A stretch of 64,000 nt of DNA from Actinokineospora sp. NBRC 105648. Lineage in GTDB: Bacteria; Actinomycetota; Actinomycetes; Mycobacteriales; Pseudonocardiaceae. The notes beneath the pieces were generated by a model. The model did not search any database and was not told where the DNA came from. It was given only the letters and a program-made list of their open reading frames with translations. Positions 17,608-50,795 of the stretch are shown here, one piece after another. The stretch spans positions 62,001-126,000 of the forward strand of contig NZ_BSTR01000012.1 in assembly GCF_030269645.1 (NCBI RefSeq), read 5' to 3'. Each line of letters opens with the position of its first letter. Position 1 is the stretch's first letter. The translations under genes were made by a program, and so were the position numbers.

Positions 17608-18603
17608 GTGATCCAGCCGGGCCTGCGCCGAGCGCGCGCGTACGCGGTGGCGGCGGGGCTGCTGCTCGCCGCCGGGTGCGGCTCGGCCGAGCCGTCGGCC
17701 GCCGCCCCGGCCCCGCCCAGCGCCGTCGCGACCAGCGTGCCTGTTCCGACCACCACGACCACGGCCCCGGCGGCCTCCGACGCCCCGGCGCCCGGCACCC
17801 AGGCGGCCCCTGTGACCACCACCTCGCCGACCCGGCCGGAGTGCGCGGGCCAGCCGTACCCGCGCTCGGGCTTCGACTGCGACTTCCAGCACCGGTTCGC
17901 CGCCGCCGAGGCCTACGTGGCCCGCAGGCCGGGCACGGTCGGCATCGTCGTGCGCGACCGGCAGACCGGGGCGGTCTGGCGCAACGGGCACGCGGGCGAC
18001 CTCACCTGGACCGCCTCGACGATCAAGCTGGCCATGGTGGTCGACCTGCTGCTGCGCGACCACGCGGGCAAGGTCTCGCTCACCGCCGCCGACCGCACCC
18101 AGCTCGACGCCATGCTGCACAGCTCCGACGACGACGCGGCCACCGCGCTGTGGGCCCGCTACGGCGGTGCCGACCACACGGCGTTCAACCAGGCCTTCCC
18201 CCGCTACGGGCTCACCTCGCTGCAGCCGCAGCGCGGGTACAGCAAGGTCTACCCGTACTGGGGCTTCCAGAAGTGCACCGCGGACGACCTGGACCGACTG
18301 ATCAACTACGTGCTGGACGAGCTGCCCGCCGCGGACCGCTCCTACATCCTCGACCACCTGCGCGCCGTCGCCCCGAACCAGCAGTGGGGCGTCTGGGGCG
18401 CGGGCCCGTCGGCCCGACCGGGCAACAAGGACGGCTGGTCCGAAGAGGACGGCGGCTGGGTGATGAACTCCGTCGGCTTCCTCGGCCCGGGCGAGCGCTA
18501 CACGCTCTCGATCATGAACAACCTGCGCGGCAAGGGCGGCTACGACGAGGGCAAGCAGACCGACACCGAGGTGGCCCGGCTGATCTTCGCCGGCCGGTTC
18601 TGA
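17608..18603 (+). CDS. lipoprotein with class A beta-lactamase-like fold
   Basis: A 331-residue predicted lipoprotein: signal peptide ending LLAAGC (Cys24), a Thr/Pro/Ala-rich spacer to about residue 75, then a serine-hydrolase domain. The motifs of class A beta-lactamases and PBP-like proteins are recognisable: Ser137-x-x-Lys140 (TASTIK), Ser173-Asp-Asp (SDN-like) and Lys274-Asp-Gly (KTG-like). M. tuberculosis LppW is a similar lipoprotein. Whether it hydrolyses beta-lactams, binds peptidoglycan or is inactive cannot be told. Start is the leaderless GTG 17608. Confidence 0.75.
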   Translation: MIQPGLRRARAYAVAAGLLLAAGCGSAEPSAAAPAPPSAVATSVPVPTTTTTAPAASDAPAPGTQAAPVTTTSPTRPECAGQPYPRSGFDCDFQHRFAAAEAYVARRPGTVGIVVRDRQTGAVWRNGHAGDLTWTASTIKLAMVVDLLLRDHAGKVSLTAADRTQLDAMLHSSDDDAATALWARYGGADHTAFNQAFPRYGLTSLQPQRGYSKVYPYWGFQKCTADDLDRLINYVLDELPAADRSYILDHLRAVAPNQQWGVWGAGPSARPGNKDGWSEEDGGWVMNSVGFLGPGERYTLSIMNNLRGKGGYDEGKQTDTEVARLIFAGRF

Positions 18604-18622
18604 CCGCTGGTCCGCTAGTCCG

Positions 18623-18901
18623 CTAGTCCTCACCCAGGTCGAACGCGGCATCGGTGTCGCGGCGCGAGTACGAGCGGAACGCGATGTGGGTGTCGGTGTC
18701 GAGCACGCCCGCCACCTTGCTGATCCGCCCCGGCACCAGCGTGGCCAGCTCCTCGTGCCCCTCCACCCGCACCACCGCGACCAGGTCGACGTCCCCGGCG
18801 CAGGAGTACACCTCGGCGACCCCCTCGATGTCGGCGATCGCTTGCGCGGTCTCGGGAATCCTGTCCGTCGCGGCGCTGATCAGCACGATCGCGGTGACCA
18901 T
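18623..18901 (-). CDS. stand-alone Lrp/AsnC effector-binding (RAM) domain protein
   Basis: A 92-residue protein with only the Lrp/AsnC ligand-binding ferredoxin-like domain (AIVLISAATDRIPETAQA, then VYSCAGDVDLVAVVRVEG and VLDTDTHIAF) and no DNA-binding part. Such proteins form ring oligomers that bind amino acids and can modulate full-length Lrp proteins. ATG 18901 follows GGAAGGA. It converges with the lipoprotein gene. Confidence 0.82.
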   Translation of the reverse strand: MVTAIVLISAATDRIPETAQAIADIEGVAEVYSCAGDVDLVAVVRVEGHEELATLVPGRISKVAGVLDTDTHIAFRSYSRRDTDAAFDLGED

Positions 18902-19001
18902 CCCAGCGGGTCCTTCCGGTCGAGTTGCCTCGTCCGGCCCAGCCTAGAGCAGCCCCGCCGCTAGGCTCGTGCCGCCGCGACCAGAGCGAGAGGACACCGG
19001 G

Positions 19002-19436
19002 GTGCAGACACCTGACGAGTGGCTGGCCGACTTCGAGACCAAGGTCGCCGACCTGCAGCGCAAGGCCACCGACTTCAAACAGGCCGTCGACTCCTCGGCC
19101 ACCACCGAGCAGTCCGAAGACGGCGCCGTGACGGTGTCGGTAGCCCCCAGCGGCGCACTGACCGACCTCCGGCTGACCGACGCCGCCATGACCAAGTCCG
19201 CGGACGAGCTGGCGGCGGAGATCCTGGCCCTGACCCGCCAGGCCCGCCAAACCGCAGCCCAGTCCGTGGCGACAGCGTTCGTACCACTCGGTGGCGACAG
19301 CGGCGTGGTGCAGCGGATCCCGGTGCCGGCGGAAGAGGCACCGAGCACGCCGGAACCCACCCGACCGCGCGCTGTCGACGAGGACGACTACTCGGAGAGC
19401 AACGCCGTCTACCGCGACGACAACCGCAGCTGGTAG
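19002..19436 (+). CDS. YbaB/EbfC-like protein
   Basis: A 144-residue protein with an N-terminal helix (TPDEWLADFETKVADLQRKA), a short beta region (GAVTVSVAPSGALTDLRLT) and a second helix (ADELAAEILALTRQARQTA), the YbaB/EbfC arrangement known from nucleoid-associated proteins. The C-terminal 45 residues are acidic and Pro-rich. Actinomycetes have many such proteins, often beside WXG100-type genes. A TAGGCT box lies at 18962-18967; the GTG at 19002 is chosen over an upstream GTG at 18969 because AGAGG precedes it. Confidence 0.75.
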   Translation: MQTPDEWLADFETKVADLQRKATDFKQAVDSSATTEQSEDGAVTVSVAPSGALTDLRLTDAAMTKSADELAAEILALTRQARQTAAQSVATAFVPLGGDSGVVQRIPVPAEEAPSTPEPTRPRAVDEDDYSESNAVYRDDNRSW

Positions 19437-19864
19437 CCGGACAGACCAGAACCCAAGGCGCCCTGCCCGAGCCCTCGCTCAGCCCACCGCCCAAGGTGAT
19501 CAACGCTCCAAGATCTCTGGTCTCCCCACGCATCCGCACTCGCACGCCCCACGTGCCGGATCGCAAGAGACGCGCCGATCGAAAACCCGCCGACAACGCG
19601 CCCGCATCCTCACAGCTCACCTGCTGGATTGGGTGGAGTGGCTTTGTCTGGGGGGAGGGGCGATCGTAAACTTGCTGTGGTCGTGGGATGCCCTTCCCCA
19701 CCCGCTTTTCCCACGACGATCGCCCCTAGGGGCCCCGGGCAAAGCCACTCCACCCAATCCAGCACACCACCCGAGCAAACCCCGACGCGGCAACCCCAAA
19801 CAAGCCCCGAGGCAGCACCCTCATACAAGCCCCGGGGCGCAGCCAACCCCCAAAGCAAGCCCCC
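19437..19864. other. intergenic region with a hairpin repeat element
   Basis: These 428 bp lie between convergent genes. They hold one copy of the roughly 140-bp hairpin element (19622-19764) and C-rich flanks with repeated AACCCC and AAGCCCC runs. I see no gene. Confidence 0.5.
19622..19764 (+). repeat. hairpin repeat element, copy 1
   Basis: The ends are inverted repeats: TGCTGGATTGGGTGGAG at the left pairs with the complementary CTCCACCCAATCCAGCA at the right, and pairing continues through GGCTTTG. The inner part has a GGGGGGAGGGGCG block, TAAACTTGC, GGGATGCCCTT and, on the other side, CCCCTAGGGGCCCC. The same ordered blocks recur in three other copies in the window. It lies between two convergent genes. 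Confidence 0.8.
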
Positions 19865-44433: not shown

Positions 44434-46725
44434 GTGAGATCTCGCAGAGCCGTCCCGGTTTTGCTCGCGGCAGCACTGCTGCCGCTGACCGGTGTCGCGG
44501 CCCAGGCCGCGCCCGCCGCGCCCGCGGCCCCGCAGGCCGTCCCGCAGGCGCCCACGCCCGCCAAGCCGTCGACCAAGAGCAAGGCCGAGCAGACCAAGAG
44601 CGCCCTTGAGGCGATCAAGCGCGACCTCAAGCTCAACGACCAGCAGGTCACCCTGCGGTTGGCCCGCGAGGGCGACGCGACCAAGGTCGAGCGCGCACTG
44701 CGCGAGCAGCTGGGCGGCGCGTACGCGGGCTCCTGGCTGAACGACGACGCCAGCCAGCTCGTCGTCGCGGTCACCGACGACGCCGCGGCGGTCAAGGTGC
44801 GGGCCGCGGGGGCGCGCCCGCAGGTCGTGCGCAACAGCGCGGCGCGGCTCGACGCGGCCAAGGCCAAGCTCGACGCCGCGGCCAAGCTGGTCCCGGCCTC
44901 GGTGCCCGGCTGGCGGGTGGACTTCGCGTCCAACAGCGTCGTGGTCCTGGCCGCCGACCCCGAGGCCGCCGAGGTCAAGCGCTTCGCGGCCGCGGCGGGC
45001 GAGTCCGCCCTGGTCAAGGTCGTGCGCTCGGCCGACAAGCCGCGCAAGTACGCCACCGACCTGCGCGGCGGCGAGCCGTACTCCACCCCGGCGGGCGGCT
45101 GCTCGGTGGGCTTCGCCGTGCAGGGCGGCTACGTCAGCGCGGGCCACTGCGGTCCGGCCAGCACGCCGACCACCGGCTGGAACGGCGTGGCTCAGGGCAC
45201 CATCGAGCAGTCCGCGTTCCCGACCGACGACTTCTCCTTCGTCCGGACCACCAGCGACTGGACCCCGCGCCCCGACGTCAACCCCTACACCGGCCCGTAC
45301 GTCTCCGTGCGCGGCTCGCAGGAGGCGCCGGTCGGTGCCGCGGTCTGCCGCTCCGGCCAGACCACCGGTTACTGGTGCGGCAAGATCCTGTCCAAGAACG
45401 AGACCGTCAACTACGGCGTCGGCACCCCCGAGCTCGTCTACGGCCTCACCCGCACCGACGTGTGCGCCGAGCCGGGCGACTCCGGCGGCTCGTTCATCAG
45501 CGGCGACCAGGCGCAGGGCGTCACCTCCGGCGGCAGCGGCAACTGCTCCGTCGGCGGCACCACGTTCTTCCAGCCGGTCAACGAGATCCTCTCCCGCTAC
45601 GGCCTGACCCTGCTCACCGACGTGCCCGCCCCGGTGGGCGGCACCGACGAGAGCGGCACCATCACCGGCGACTTCAACGGTGACGGCCGCGCCGACGTGC
45701 TCGCCATGTACGACCACGGCAACGCGCGCACCGGGCTCTGGGTCTTCCCCGGCACCGCCATCGATGGCCGCGCGACCTACCCGTACCGGGTGTGGGACAG
45801 CGGTTTCGGCGCGTGGAACTGGTCCAGGGTCAACCAGATCGCCGCGGCCGACTTCAACGGCGACGGCAAGACCGACGTGCTCGCGCAGTACGACTACGGC
45901 AACAACACCGCCGCGATCTTCGTGTTCCCGGGCACCGCGGGGGAGACCACCACGCCGTACCGGGTGTGGGCCAGCGGCGCGGGCGACTGGGCCGTGGGCA
46001 AGACGAAGTTCCACGCCGGCGACTTCAACGGCGACGGCAAGGGCGACGTCGTCGCGATCTACTACTACGGCAACGCCAACACCGGCCTCTACGTCTTCCC
46101 CGGCACCGCGGCCACCGGCCCCGGCAACGTGACCACGCCGTACCCGGCGTGGCAGACCGGGGTGGGCAACTGGGAGTCGAGCAAGGCCAAGTACGCCGTC
46201 GGCGACTTCACCGGCGACGGCAAGGTCGACGTGACCGCCCTCTACAACTACGGCGGCGCGAACACCGGCCTGTTCGTCGTGCCCGGCACCGCGGCCTCCG
46301 GCCCGGCGGCCACCGGCGCGTACCAGACCTGGGCCAGCGGCTTCGGCAACTTCGACTGGAACCAGGCGAAGGTCTCGATCACCGACATGGACGGCGACCG
46401 CAAGGCCGACGTCGCCCTGCTCTACAACTACAACCAGGCCCGCACCGCCCTGTTCATCGCACCCGGCACCACCGGGCGCGGCTCCTCGGCCACGGTGCCG
46501 TTCAGCCTCTGGGACAGCGGCTTCAATTCCTGGGACTGGAGCAAGACCAAGATCACCGCGGGCGACTTCAACGGTGACGGCCACGGTGACGTGCTGGCCT
46601 TCTACAACTACTTCAACCTCGACACCGGCCTGTTCGTCTTCTCGGGCTGGCACACCCCGCTCCCGTACGTGGAGTGGCGCAGCGGCCCCGGCGTGTGGGA
46701 CTGGCGCCTGGCTCGACTGAGCTAG
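44434..46725 (+). CDS. secreted S1E-type serine protease with FG-GAP repeats
   Basis: A 763-residue exported protease. Signal VRSRRAVPVLLAAALLPLTG, a propeptide (about 60-200, alpha-lytic protease type), then a chymotrypsin-fold domain with His238 (SAGHCG), Asp265/266 (TDDFSFV) and Ser350 (GDSGGS). Residues about 410-763 are six FG-GAP-like repeats of about 58 residues with DFNGDGK, alternating with PYRVWDSGFG-type aromatic segments; they are a different subtype from the neighbouring pair. GTG 44434 is preferred over GTG 44401 because GGGAGAGG precedes it and the signal peptide starts there. Confidence 0.88.
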   Translation: MRSRRAVPVLLAAALLPLTGVAAQAAPAAPAAPQAVPQAPTPAKPSTKSKAEQTKSALEAIKRDLKLNDQQVTLRLAREGDATKVERALREQLGGAYAGSWLNDDASQLVVAVTDDAAAVKVRAAGARPQVVRNSAARLDAAKAKLDAAAKLVPASVPGWRVDFASNSVVVLAADPEAAEVKRFAAAAGESALVKVVRSADKPRKYATDLRGGEPYSTPAGGCSVGFAVQGGYVSAGHCGPASTPTTGWNGVAQGTIEQSAFPTDDFSFVRTTSDWTPRPDVNPYTGPYVSVRGSQEAPVGAAVCRSGQTTGYWCGKILSKNETVNYGVGTPELVYGLTRTDVCAEPGDSGGSFISGDQAQGVTSGGSGNCSVGGTTFFQPVNEILSRYGLTLLTDVPAPVGGTDESGTITGDFNGDGRADVLAMYDHGNARTGLWVFPGTAIDGRATYPYRVWDSGFGAWNWSRVNQIAAADFNGDGKTDVLAQYDYGNNTAAIFVFPGTAGETTTPYRVWASGAGDWAVGKTKFHAGDFNGDGKGDVVAIYYYGNANTGLYVFPGTAATGPGNVTTPYPAWQTGVGNWESSKAKYAVGDFTGDGKVDVTALYNYGGANTGLFVVPGTAASGPAATGAYQTWASGFGNFDWNQAKVSITDMDGDRKADVALLYNYNQARTALFIAPGTTGRGSSATVPFSLWDSGFNSWDWSKTKITAGDFNGDGHGDVLAFYNYFNLDTGLFVFSGWHTPLPYVEWRSGPGVWDWRLARLS

Positions 46726-46746
46726 TAGGCACCTGAAGGAGTGATC

Positions 46747-46781
46747 GAGCGGCCCGTGCGCACCTCGCGCACGGGCCGCTC
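46747..46781 (+). terminator. 15-bp perfect hairpin after the protease gene
   Basis: Arms 46747-46761 and 46767-46781 are perfectly complementary with a 5-nt loop. It lies 21 bp after the stop. Confidence 0.85.
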
Positions 46782-46831
46782 GCGTCCCCGGCCACGGTGT
46801 GACCCACCGGCCTGGGCGACACCCACCCGGC

Positions 46832-47110
46832 CGAGAGAATCCCGACTCCGCCGGTACCGCAGCGGACAAGCCGACCCTGCTGCACCGAAGTGAATCCGCC
46901 CCCAGCAAACCGCAGCGGATAGGCCGACCCCGCTGGCAAGTAACAAGATCCCGCCCCCGCTGTTACCGCAGCGGATAAGCCGACCCTGCTGCACCGAAGT
47001 GAATCCCGCCCCCACCCATCAAACGGCAGCGGATAGGCCGACCCCACCAGCACCAAGAGAATCCCGTCCCCCACTAAACCGCAGCGGTGAGGCCGACCCC
47101 GCTGGTACGC
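46832..47110. repeat. 56-bp imperfect tandem array
   Basis: CCGCAGCGG(A/T)-type unit starts occur at 46857, 46910, 46966, 47023 and 47079, spaced 53-57 bp. Each unit continues GGCCGACCC(C/T)GCTG and ends ATCCCGCCCCC. A partial unit precedes the first. There are no unique spacers between units. Confidence 0.85.
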
Positions 47111-47126
47111 AAGTCCCGTTACGGAT

Positions 47127-47264
47127 GCTCGATCTGGTGGACTTGCTTCGTGTGGGGGGAGAGTGCCGCTAAACTTGCCGTGGGTGGGGATGCCCTTACC
47201 TGCCCTTTTCTCTCCACCGCGGTGCTCTAGGGGCCCCGCGCGAAGCGAGTTCACTAGATCGAGC
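47127..47264 (+). repeat. hairpin repeat element, copy 2
   Basis: Ends GCTCGATCTGGTGGACTTGC and its near-complement at the right (mismatched at a few places). Internal blocks are GGGGGGAGAGTGCCGC, TAAACTTGCC, GGGGATGCCCTT and CTAGGGGCCCC, in the same order as copy 1. Confidence 0.8.
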
Positions 47265-47363
47265 CCATGCTTTTACTCGGGCAACCCCAGCGATGAGCCA
47301 CCATGCAGGTCGACCGTAGGTCGGCGTGCGGCACACCCCACGAGCTGCCCGAGTAAAGCGGAG

Positions 47364-47503
47364 GCTCGATTGGCTGGACTGCCTTCGCGTGGGGCCCCTA
47401 GGCGACCGCGTGGGGAAAAAGCGTGGGGAGAAGGGCATCCCCACTACCAGGTCAAGTTTAGCGGTCGCCTCCCCCCACACGAAGGCAGTCCACCCAATCG
47501 AGC
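47364..47503 (-). repeat. hairpin repeat element, copy 3
   Basis: Inverted relative to copies 1 and 2: GGGGCCCCTAGG is at the left and CAAGTTTAGCGG, GGGGGGAGG complement at the right. The end arms GCTCGATTGGCTGGACTGCC and complement differ from copy 2 but pair with each other. Confidence 0.8.
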
Positions 47504-47815
47504 ACAAACGTAACGGGTGTTGCGTACCAGCAGGCTCGGCATTTAGAGATTGAAGAGATTGAAAGAGCAAAGAAGGATGGGGTGGGGCGGCAAAGGGTGG
47601 AAGGTGAGAGGTGGGTGCCAAGGGTGGCAACAAGAGATGGATGGGAGTCAAGGGCGGCAAGAGGTGGGTGTGTCTGGGGCAAGGGAGCGGTGGTGCTTGG
47701 AGTTCCTGCGCTTTGGGACGTTGTCCCGGGCTGGTGGGGATGGATTTCACTCGGTTGAGGGGTTCCGGGCGCTCGGTTCGGCGTTTCGTTGGTGTGGTGG
47801 GTAGACACTTGGGCC

Positions 47816-48313
47816 ATGAGTAGCCCTGAACGTTCTACCGCAAGTTCTGCTTCACCTCCGACCGCCCTGCGTCTGGCCGTCCTGGTGGCCTGCACCGTCA
47901 TCGGTGTCGCGGGTATCGCGACTCCGGCCTCGGCTGGGGGTGCGCAGTACTACCAGGTCGTTTCCGCGTTGACCGGGACCTGTCTTGCCGCTGATACCGA
48001 GCTGCCGAGTCTGCGGGACTGTGCCGGGGATGGGCTTGAGTGGCGGATCTCGCCCGCTCCCGCTGATGGTGGTTGGACGATCAGCGTCGGTACCTGGTGC
48101 CTCACATCGGCGCCGGTGCCCTCGGTTGGTCCGTGTGATGGGGGTGCTGGGCAGGCGTGGGGTTTTCAGCCCACCTACACCGGCTACCGGATCACTGCCT
48201 GGGAGTTGGAGCTCGCGGTGATCGACGGAGTCGAGCCCGCCGTGGTGAGTCTTGATGCTACTGAGGAACCGGCCAATCGGTGGTACCTGGTCCCGGCGTT
48301 CTCAGTCGCGTAG
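47816..48313 (+). CDS. small secreted ricin-type lectin-like protein
   Basis: A 165-residue protein with a Sec signal peptide (about residues 25-45, LAVLVACTVIGVAGIATPASA) and a single domain with beta-trefoil traits: YYQVVSALTGTCLAAD, a WRI segment, GTWCLTSAP and GQAWGFQPT, with paired cysteines. This resembles RICIN/CBM13 carbohydrate-binding domains in reduced form. Its end overlaps the convergent MmyB-type gene by 12 bp. The long G-rich upstream stretch holds no obvious ribosome-binding site. Confidence 0.65.
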   Translation: MSSPERSTASSASPPTALRLAVLVACTVIGVAGIATPASAGGAQYYQVVSALTGTCLAADTELPSLRDCAGDGLEWRISPAPADGGWTISVGTWCLTSAPVPSVGPCDGGAGQAWGFQPTYTGYRITAWELELAVIDGVEPAVVSLDATEEPANRWYLVPAFSVA

Positions 48314-50653: not shown

Positions 50654-50795
50654 GCTCGATCTGGTGGACCTGCTTTGTCTGGGGCCCCTAAGAAAAGAGG
50701 CGCCGTGGGTAGAGCGGGTGGGAAAGGGATACCCACCGCCGAACCAGGCTAGCGCCTCTTTTCTCCCCAGACAAAGCAGGTCCACCAGATCGAGC
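50654..50795 (-). repeat. hairpin repeat element, copy 4
   Basis: End arms GCTCGATCTGGTGGACCTGC and complement match over about 30 bp without mismatch, through TTTGTCTGGGG. It has the orientation of copy 3 (GGGGCCCCTAAG left). The inner ATGCCC and TAAACTTG blocks are more diverged than in other copies, while the long stem AGAAAAGAGGCGC pairs with GCGCCTCTTTTCT. Confidence 0.8.

Follow-up and report, generated by a model that had tools for sequence, protein, structure and literature searches.

The window, a stretch of 64,000 nucleotides from Actinokineospora sp. NBRC 105648, carries at 47092-47540 an imperfect palindrome that probably (at a rough estimate, 60%) represents an inverted dimer formed by a mobile, non-autonomous hairpin repeat that acts or moves as a folded single strand and is homogenised by gene conversion. 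As a non-autonomous repeat, the element would be moved by an enzyme encoded elsewhere, which may recognise one folded single strand, either ssDNA or RNA. Gene conversion would homogenise the copies within a species, so that each species comes to possess its own version, and selection would remove copies from genes and promoters while leaving those near gene 3' ends.

The palindrome is formed by two hairpins of about 139 bp in opposite orientation (Table 1). Folded as DNA, it reaches -179.4 kcal/mol, against a mean of -88.8 for shuffled sequences (z -20.2; 0 of 100 shuffles as good), and its halves fold independently as RNA on their better strands, with z-scores of -8.0 for hairpin A and -10.1 for hairpin B. 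An earlier note on this DNA had described a symmetry about 47317 and two elements of about 140 bp in opposite orientation, each itself a hairpin, and all of this is borne out: the motif CGACC-GTA-GGTCG at 47311-47323 has its midpoint at 47317, with larger arm pairs centred at 47314-47316, and a covariance model matches both elements. The same note gave the palindrome outer flanks of 23 bp with two mismatches; inverted flanks do exist, but the actual arms are somewhat longer. Nested inverted-repeat arms pair 47126-47183 with 47447-47504 (83% complementary) and 47184-47273 with 47355-47444 (71%), and internal arms are found within hairpin A (31 nt; 47127-47157 and 47234-47264, 84%) and hairpin B (47364-47394 and 47473-47503, 94%). 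Folding of both strands, as the note had proposed, places the better fold of A on the forward and that of B on the reverse strand. The covariance model finds four hairpins in the window, each of 137-141 nt. The pattern of the roughly 55-bp unit has one weak match in the window outside the array that precedes the element; exact matches to the unit occur in 25 of 102 loci, all 25 from the own genome. Units resembling the array precede many own-genome copies, and in other species the unit has a sequence specific to them.

Table 1. Family hairpins of the window and features surrounding the palindrome (window positions; folds in kcal/mol).
Feature	Position	Strand	Basis
Terminator-like ordinary stem-loop, not part of the element	46747..46782	+	Seen in the sequence; directly 3' of the upstream gene, which ends at 46725
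Tandem array of five C-rich units of about 55 bp, preceding the element	46846..47112	+	Repeat family, 5 copies
Left outer arm, flanking hairpin A upstream	47092..47123	+	32 nt, 88% complementary to 47509-47540
Hairpin A, folding strand +	47127..47263	+	Covariance model 131.1 bits, E 3e-29; RNA fold -85.5 (+) vs -54.1 (-)
Apical stem-loop, then T-rich tract, within hairpin A (terminator-like)	47180..47203	+	Scan for stem-loop and T-tract; family-wide strand test
Centre: downstream flanks of both hairpins, tail to tail	47264..47364	.	Inner arms 47272-47299 and 47330-47357 (75%)
Hairpin B, folding strand -	47365..47503	-	Covariance model 136.3 bits, E 1.7e-30; RNA fold -96.5 (-) vs -88.8 (+)
Apical stem-loop, then T-rich tract, within hairpin B	47423..47444	-	Scan for stem-loop and T-tract
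Right outer arm, flanking hairpin B upstream	47509..47540	-	Inverted repeat with 47092-47123
Right flank: GGCTCGGCATTTAGAGATT-like segment, then purine-rich low-complexity tail	47532..47690	+	Segment found in the majority of the 40 copies
Solo hairpin of the same family, predicted convergent gap	19623..19762	+	120.4 bits, E 1e-26; fold -100.1 (+) vs -89.2 (-)
Solo hairpin of the same family, predicted tandem gap	50655..50795	-	109.7 bits (-), E 3.6e-24; 67.6 bits (+); fold -107.9 (-) vs -106.9 (+)

The hairpin core, of about 140 nt, consists of a 30-bp outer stem, a purine-rich asymmetric internal loop, an inner stem of 9-10 bp and, at the top, an apical stem-loop with a U-rich segment, and is flanked by strand-asymmetric C/A-rich sequence. 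In an alignment of 39 sequences, 45 pairs are formed in 97.4% of cells. Double changes are seen in 33 of these pairs, a number that none of 500 shuffles reached (mean 19.9) and that compares with 7-13 in slid controls; the covariation score of 0.50 likewise exceeds that of shuffled (0.22; 0 of 500) and slid (about 0.1) alignments. Single-step changes produced 163 G-U cells versus 7 A-C cells, and 16 pairs contain G-U only, four contain both and none contains A-C only. Since a double-stranded site would be blind to the difference between G-U and A-C, what is conserved is one folded strand, RNA or ssDNA, and the suggestion in the earlier note of a structured RNA is sustained to the extent that the conserved fold is that of a single strand. 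The sequences behind all these counts are related, and the structure comes from the very alignment in which the changes were counted, so that the counts do not represent independent events. Of 37 own-genome hairpins (those of 80 halves that fitted a strict pattern), 36 fold better on this strand, as do 52 of 53 hairpins from the genus; the effect is not universal, as the window hairpin at 50655-50795 has nearly equal fold energies on both strands. Another sign of strand polarity is found in the hairpin-strand flanks of solo copies, which are rich in C over G, with a C/G ratio of 1.19-1.84 versus 0.98-1.04 after other genes.

The earlier note had proposed a search for the 431-bp unit in the genome and in relatives, and the unit proved to be repeated genome-wide. 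In the own genome (G000; 8.43 Mb in 149 contigs), scoring of 40 candidates out of 352 yielded 40 copies, that of the window included, with 89-100% identity; 39 of them span the whole unit and one starts at base 7. Further 431-bp dimers lie outside these 40, for example on contigs 44 and 55. An arm pattern gave 215 forward and 206 reverse matches, with 0 and 0 in the control, and at least 100 exact places; as each hairpin can yield two such matches, around 200 hairpins would be present. The hairpin element occupies well over a hundred intergenic places in this genome. Not all copies are dimers: solo hairpins preceded by the same units also occur, as do dimers that have lost one of their hairpins and other mixtures, and a further set of 62 clusters, from loci chosen mostly for not being among the 40 dimers, comprises 49 solo hairpins, 10 tail-to-tail pairs and three head-to-head pairs. 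The 431-bp unit is called an inverted dimer because solo hairpins carry downstream sequence similar to the dimer centre, and the identical two-hairpin layout of the 40 scored copies suggests amplification of the dimer as such. No two of the 40 are more than 97% identical, which gives no sign of very recent spread.

A covariance model (R1) built from 39 single hairpins matches all 16 Actinokineospora genomes at E up to 0.001, from one match (G006, which like G015 is poor in hairpins) to at least 150 (G000, G003 and G005) with 150 candidates scored per genome, and BLAST detects parts of the 431-bp unit in eight of the 16, the own genome included. An exact core pattern recovers 41 stretches among public species genomes (a set that may not include the own genome), all from four Actinokineospora species. 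Among 120 genomes drawn from the family, R1 has matches in 15, ten of which belong to six other genera. Loci from seven of these ten genomes are of three kinds: L142, L143 and L146 contain the core pattern exactly (GGGGGGA, AAGCU, UAGGGGCCCC); L145 and L148 have the flanking stem altered on both sides together; and L147 and L149 show a weaker resemblance to the hairpin. The core pattern, which fits 33 of 149 loci, has no match in 394 genomes of the class; this result carries little weight, as just three of the genomes listed are of the same family and the own variant lies outside the pattern. BLAST matches in two genomes of other genera (G129 and G195) were taken as chance, being 34 bp long and seemingly within coding sequence. 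Searches of 72,556 plasmid and 50,697 phage records gave no match, the core pattern hit no viral contig, and six viral contigs with a 15-base piece had no R1 match at E up to 1; a phage or plasmid origin was therefore rejected. Among the matches listed from the open-licence literature, titles and opening lines of abstracts describe no comparable repeat for Actinokineospora, Pseudonocardia, Pseudonocardiaceae or Pseudonocardiales. With a family that spans genera, and arms just 71-88% complementary around a spacer, the argument of the earlier note that survival of such a repeat implies a function or a recent event is left without support.

The comparison with empty sites, also proposed in that note, covered 173 pairs of orthologous gaps, in sequence partly chosen for holding hairpins and with hairpins flagged by a crude pattern. 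The 16 flagged rows correspond to 12 distinct gaps, and in all 12 the hairpin is present in one species and absent from the partner (checked with R1 where covered); one crude flag (G000 316031) was contradicted by R1 and counted as empty. The hairpin-free partner gaps measure 18, 36, 53, 62, 91 and 102 bp, and also 203, 263, 457, 494, 672 and 1586 bp. In addition, the gap between mnmA and an oxidoreductase gene, about 560 bp in the own genome, is empty in G004 (65 bp) and G013 (50 bp), and that between ung and recG, about 650 bp, is empty in G008 (66 bp), G003, G004 and G014; R1 finds no hairpin in the gap pieces from these five genomes. With 40 own-genome copies, spread through the genus and presence or absence at orthologous gaps, the repeat behaves like a non-autonomous dispersed element, in line with one of the suggestions of the earlier note. 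In G005 the ung-recG gap likewise contains a hairpin, in the version peculiar to that species, and one site (L121/L092) is occupied in both the own genome and A. auranticolor; such doubly occupied gaps are explained by ancient common insertions or by hot spots just as well as by mobility. In the same ung-recG gap the 3' end of ung is repeated, with one extra copy in G003 (L124) and two in G014 (L129). Inserted segments replace most of a gap rather than add a clean unit, and no target-site duplication was seen at the occupied and empty junctions read, between relatives too distant for exact ends. One 'empty' own-genome site retains a 14-bp remnant of a hairpin arm, the sole such match outside hairpins in 400 kb, which indicates that loss occurs too and that presence and absence could partly reflect loss. 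For the window copy, the flanks lie at different places in relatives among the matches listed.

The sites that vary among the 40 copies are shuffled as by gene conversion: all four allele combinations occur at 1429 of 1953 site pairs, with 82 of 172 pairs less than 20 bp apart and 898 of 1134 pairs more than 100 bp apart. Gene conversion among copies could explain species-specific versions at shared sites.

Placement relative to genes was assessed in 1.6 Mb, formed by four contiguous 400-kb pieces from three genomes, in which 52 strong hairpins were kept and grouped into 41 clusters, and four weaker or partial hairpins (in L169, L175, L190 and L207) were dropped. Gene positions came from a codon-usage gene finder trained on the window, which misses some genes. 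None of the 41 clusters overlaps a predicted gene; 25 lie in convergent, 13 in tandem and three in divergent gaps, compared with 227, 820 and 227 of the 1274 gaps overall (18% convergent), which corresponds to p 2e-9 for the convergent enrichment and p 0.09 for divergent gaps. Convergent gaps also hold 26 of the 40 own dimers, 25 of 45 hairpins at genus loci (counted as single hairpins rather than clusters, eight of 53 at locus edges having been dropped) and 24 of 52 further own-genome clusters, mostly solo, of which 23 are tandem and five divergent (the set of 62 after 10 were dropped). The window copy counts as convergent because the finder misses a small forward ORF at about 47818-48313, and should this ORF be a gene, the copy would have to be classed as tandem. 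In tandem gaps the clusters lie nearer the 3' end of the upstream gene in 11 of 13 cases in the 1.6 Mb and in 20 of 23 among the further own-genome clusters (one cluster being in both sets). The hairpins of G003 show no clear replication-strand skew by eye.

Such intergenic and convergent placement would be expected from a purged parasite and from a terminator alike. The main rival explanation is that the hairpins are transcription terminators useful to the host, with the inverted dimer serving two convergent genes, each transcript meeting its own sense hairpin; this we regard as unlikely, albeit with a real share of the probability. Besides convergent placement and proximity to upstream 3' ends, it draws on a stem-loop followed by at least five T in eight positions, present on the folding strand in 54 of 135 hairpins, on the other strand in none and in two of 135 letter-shuffled sequences (with at least four T, 94, 0 and 36, respectively). 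Moreover, genes adjoining the element have hairpins of their own below -25 kcal/mol at 44% of 59 3' ends, versus 62% of 170 others (p 0.012, or p 0.058 against convergent gaps longer than 250 bp). The 3'-end placement, the terminator-like motif and these weaker neighbouring hairpins would also fit a host function. Against termination, however, the folding strand in tandem gaps does not clearly follow gene direction, with 27 cases along it versus 19 opposed (p 0.30), a count pooled from 13:6 in the further own-genome clusters, where there is a lean towards gene direction, 7:3 in the 1.6 Mb, less one shared locus, and 8:10 at genus loci. The U-tract stem-loop, nested inside the larger conserved stem, is uneven between species and no family constant: 36 of the 54 hairpins with five T come from the own genome, and none from those sampled in G002, G005 and G008. 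A terminator acting at the inner U-tract would have no need of covariation in the outer stem. In the window, and at two sites in G003, the element has an ordinary terminator hairpin still standing next to it, and there are orthologous gene pairs that lack the element altogether. Finally, section 6 of PMC3049150 describes IS elements and the parasitic repeats BOX, RUP and SPRITE as likewise over-represented between convergent genes in pneumococcus.

The strong single-strand conservation described above could instead belong to independent small structured RNA genes multiplied in the genome, whose products would act as sRNA or as protein-binding RNA. Covariation, G-U conservation on one strand, and conserved internal-loop and U-rich motifs all suit this explanation, which we nevertheless consider improbable. 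A simple scan found no sigma-70-like promoter in 46600-47900, and the window has no Rfam match over gathering score (up to E 5 the sole matches are a pair of miRNA precursor families and M23 RNA, each scoring well under its own threshold), so that a known Rfam RNA was rejected. Dispersal and dimer formation are, to our knowledge, atypical of sRNA genes.

Slightly more improbable still is an element acting at the DNA level, one that binds a nucleoid protein, gyrase or DnaA and is retained at points where supercoils accumulate from converging transcription. Convergent placement is in accordance with it, and so are DnaA-box-like sites. The actinobacterial DnaA box consensus is TTGTCCACA, and downstream of many relatives' hairpins lies a further conserved segment that holds one or more sites resembling it. 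At about 110-480 bp downstream, 34 hairpins have such sites on the hairpin strand versus one on the opposite strand; upstream, the figures are six and four. Hairpins with downstream boxes number 11 of 33 in G003, nine of 14 in G005, three of six in G008, three of 10 in G014, seven of 24 in G002 and one of four in inagensis, with 0 of 2 in both G010 and G012. In G003 and G005 the boxes often come as pairs separated by 19 bp, and 13 of 14 pairs in a G005 piece (G005:C1:1-400000, L190-L209) and five of nine in two G003 pieces (L150-L189) lie within 800 bp of a hairpin. Nevertheless, no such sites were found at 11 sampled own-genome hairpins or near the window hairpins, most hairpins lack them even in G002 and G003, and recognition of double-stranded DNA would not keep pairing on one strand only. 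The replication or recombination site considered in the earlier note is thus hinted at by box pairs beside relatives' hairpins, and finds no counterpart in the own-genome sample.

An artefact of assembly or sequencing, like a one-off recent inverted duplication, is virtually eliminated by the 40 copies, which have different flanks and are scattered over many contigs, and by the same hairpin in the single-contig genome of the congener G003, so that the artefact by which the earlier note thought its reading could fall is excluded, and the five draft contigs that begin or end within family hairpins (L109, L110, L113, L259 and L265), which might have favoured it, indicate that these repeats limit assembly.

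No mobilising enzyme was found, which counts against the preferred reading of a mobile repeat. The Y1 transposase (PF01797) has no match in the own genome, and 5 of 14 control genomes do have one. Reverse transcriptase (PF00078) occurs in three of 16 genus genomes (own, G012 and G014) and is absent from 13, including G003 and G005 with at least 150 hairpin matches each; spread driven by reverse transcriptase was therefore rejected as a general mechanism, although the own genome does hold three RVT_1-like frames (G000:C67:22314, C3:154256 and C5:187246). An IS3-like two-frame transposase, named by eye, lies between the hairpins of one array in G003 (L158, about 17950-19290; G003:C1, about 1178000), and this IS3-like element does not have the hairpin as its ends. 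On the reverse strand of L092 (A. auranticolor), a transposase-like frame, again judged by eye, seems to lie beyond the downstream flank of the hairpin at 1002-1141.

Several families of small repeats offer comparisons. EFAR elements of Enterococcus faecalis, variable assemblies of stem-loop modules that replace terminator-like stem-loops, would be similar in these respects. REPs occur in inverted pairs. According to PMC8266576, they are high-copy, intergenic and palindromic sequences of 20-50 nt following a GTAG tetranucleotide, one strand of which is recognised as folded ssDNA. In copy number, intergenic position, palindromic form, strand-specific fold and inverted pairing the present element resembles these REP/BIME systems with TnpA-REP (RAYT) of enterobacteria and pseudomonads; membership was rejected, since the hairpin is about 140 nt long, its conserved core differs and the own genome has no match to the Y1 transposase. 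GTAG does appear in the hairpin versions of some species, and the own-genome alignment rows (11) read CTAG. With BOX, RUP and SPRITE of Streptococcus pneumoniae, as described in PMC3049150 (tandem modules in BOX, a terminator-like SPRITE), the element shares a modular or structured small-repeat form and enrichment in convergent gaps; it is set apart from those descriptions by one hairpin core across genera, by tail-to-tail dimers and by lineage. Like prokaryotic MITEs, in the portions of PMC10969869 and PMC3049150 that treat them, it is non-coding, short and intergenic with inverted-repeat ends, but unlike them it is not AT-rich (hairpin G+C 0.59-0.70); no target-site duplication was seen at the junctions read.

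A broader and more tentative proposal, which we hold to be doubtful, is that these hairpins constitute a family-wide class in which the folded single strand is itself mobile, moved by an enzyme that is neither Y1/RAYT nor a reverse transcriptase and that recognises the purine loop, with a link to DnaA boxes. If this were true, the paired DnaA-box-like sites in several Actinokineospora would tie the spread or the effect of the element to replication. More generally, a high-copy, strand-polar palindromic repeat fills intergenic space in these organisms, with at least 150 matches in each of three genomes, and no RAYT-type transposase was found in the one genome tested, which suggests that its maintenance is due either to a mobilising enzyme not yet recognised or to strong selection by the host. 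The occupied and empty orthologous sites represent a natural experiment for both questions, the mobilising enzyme and host selection.
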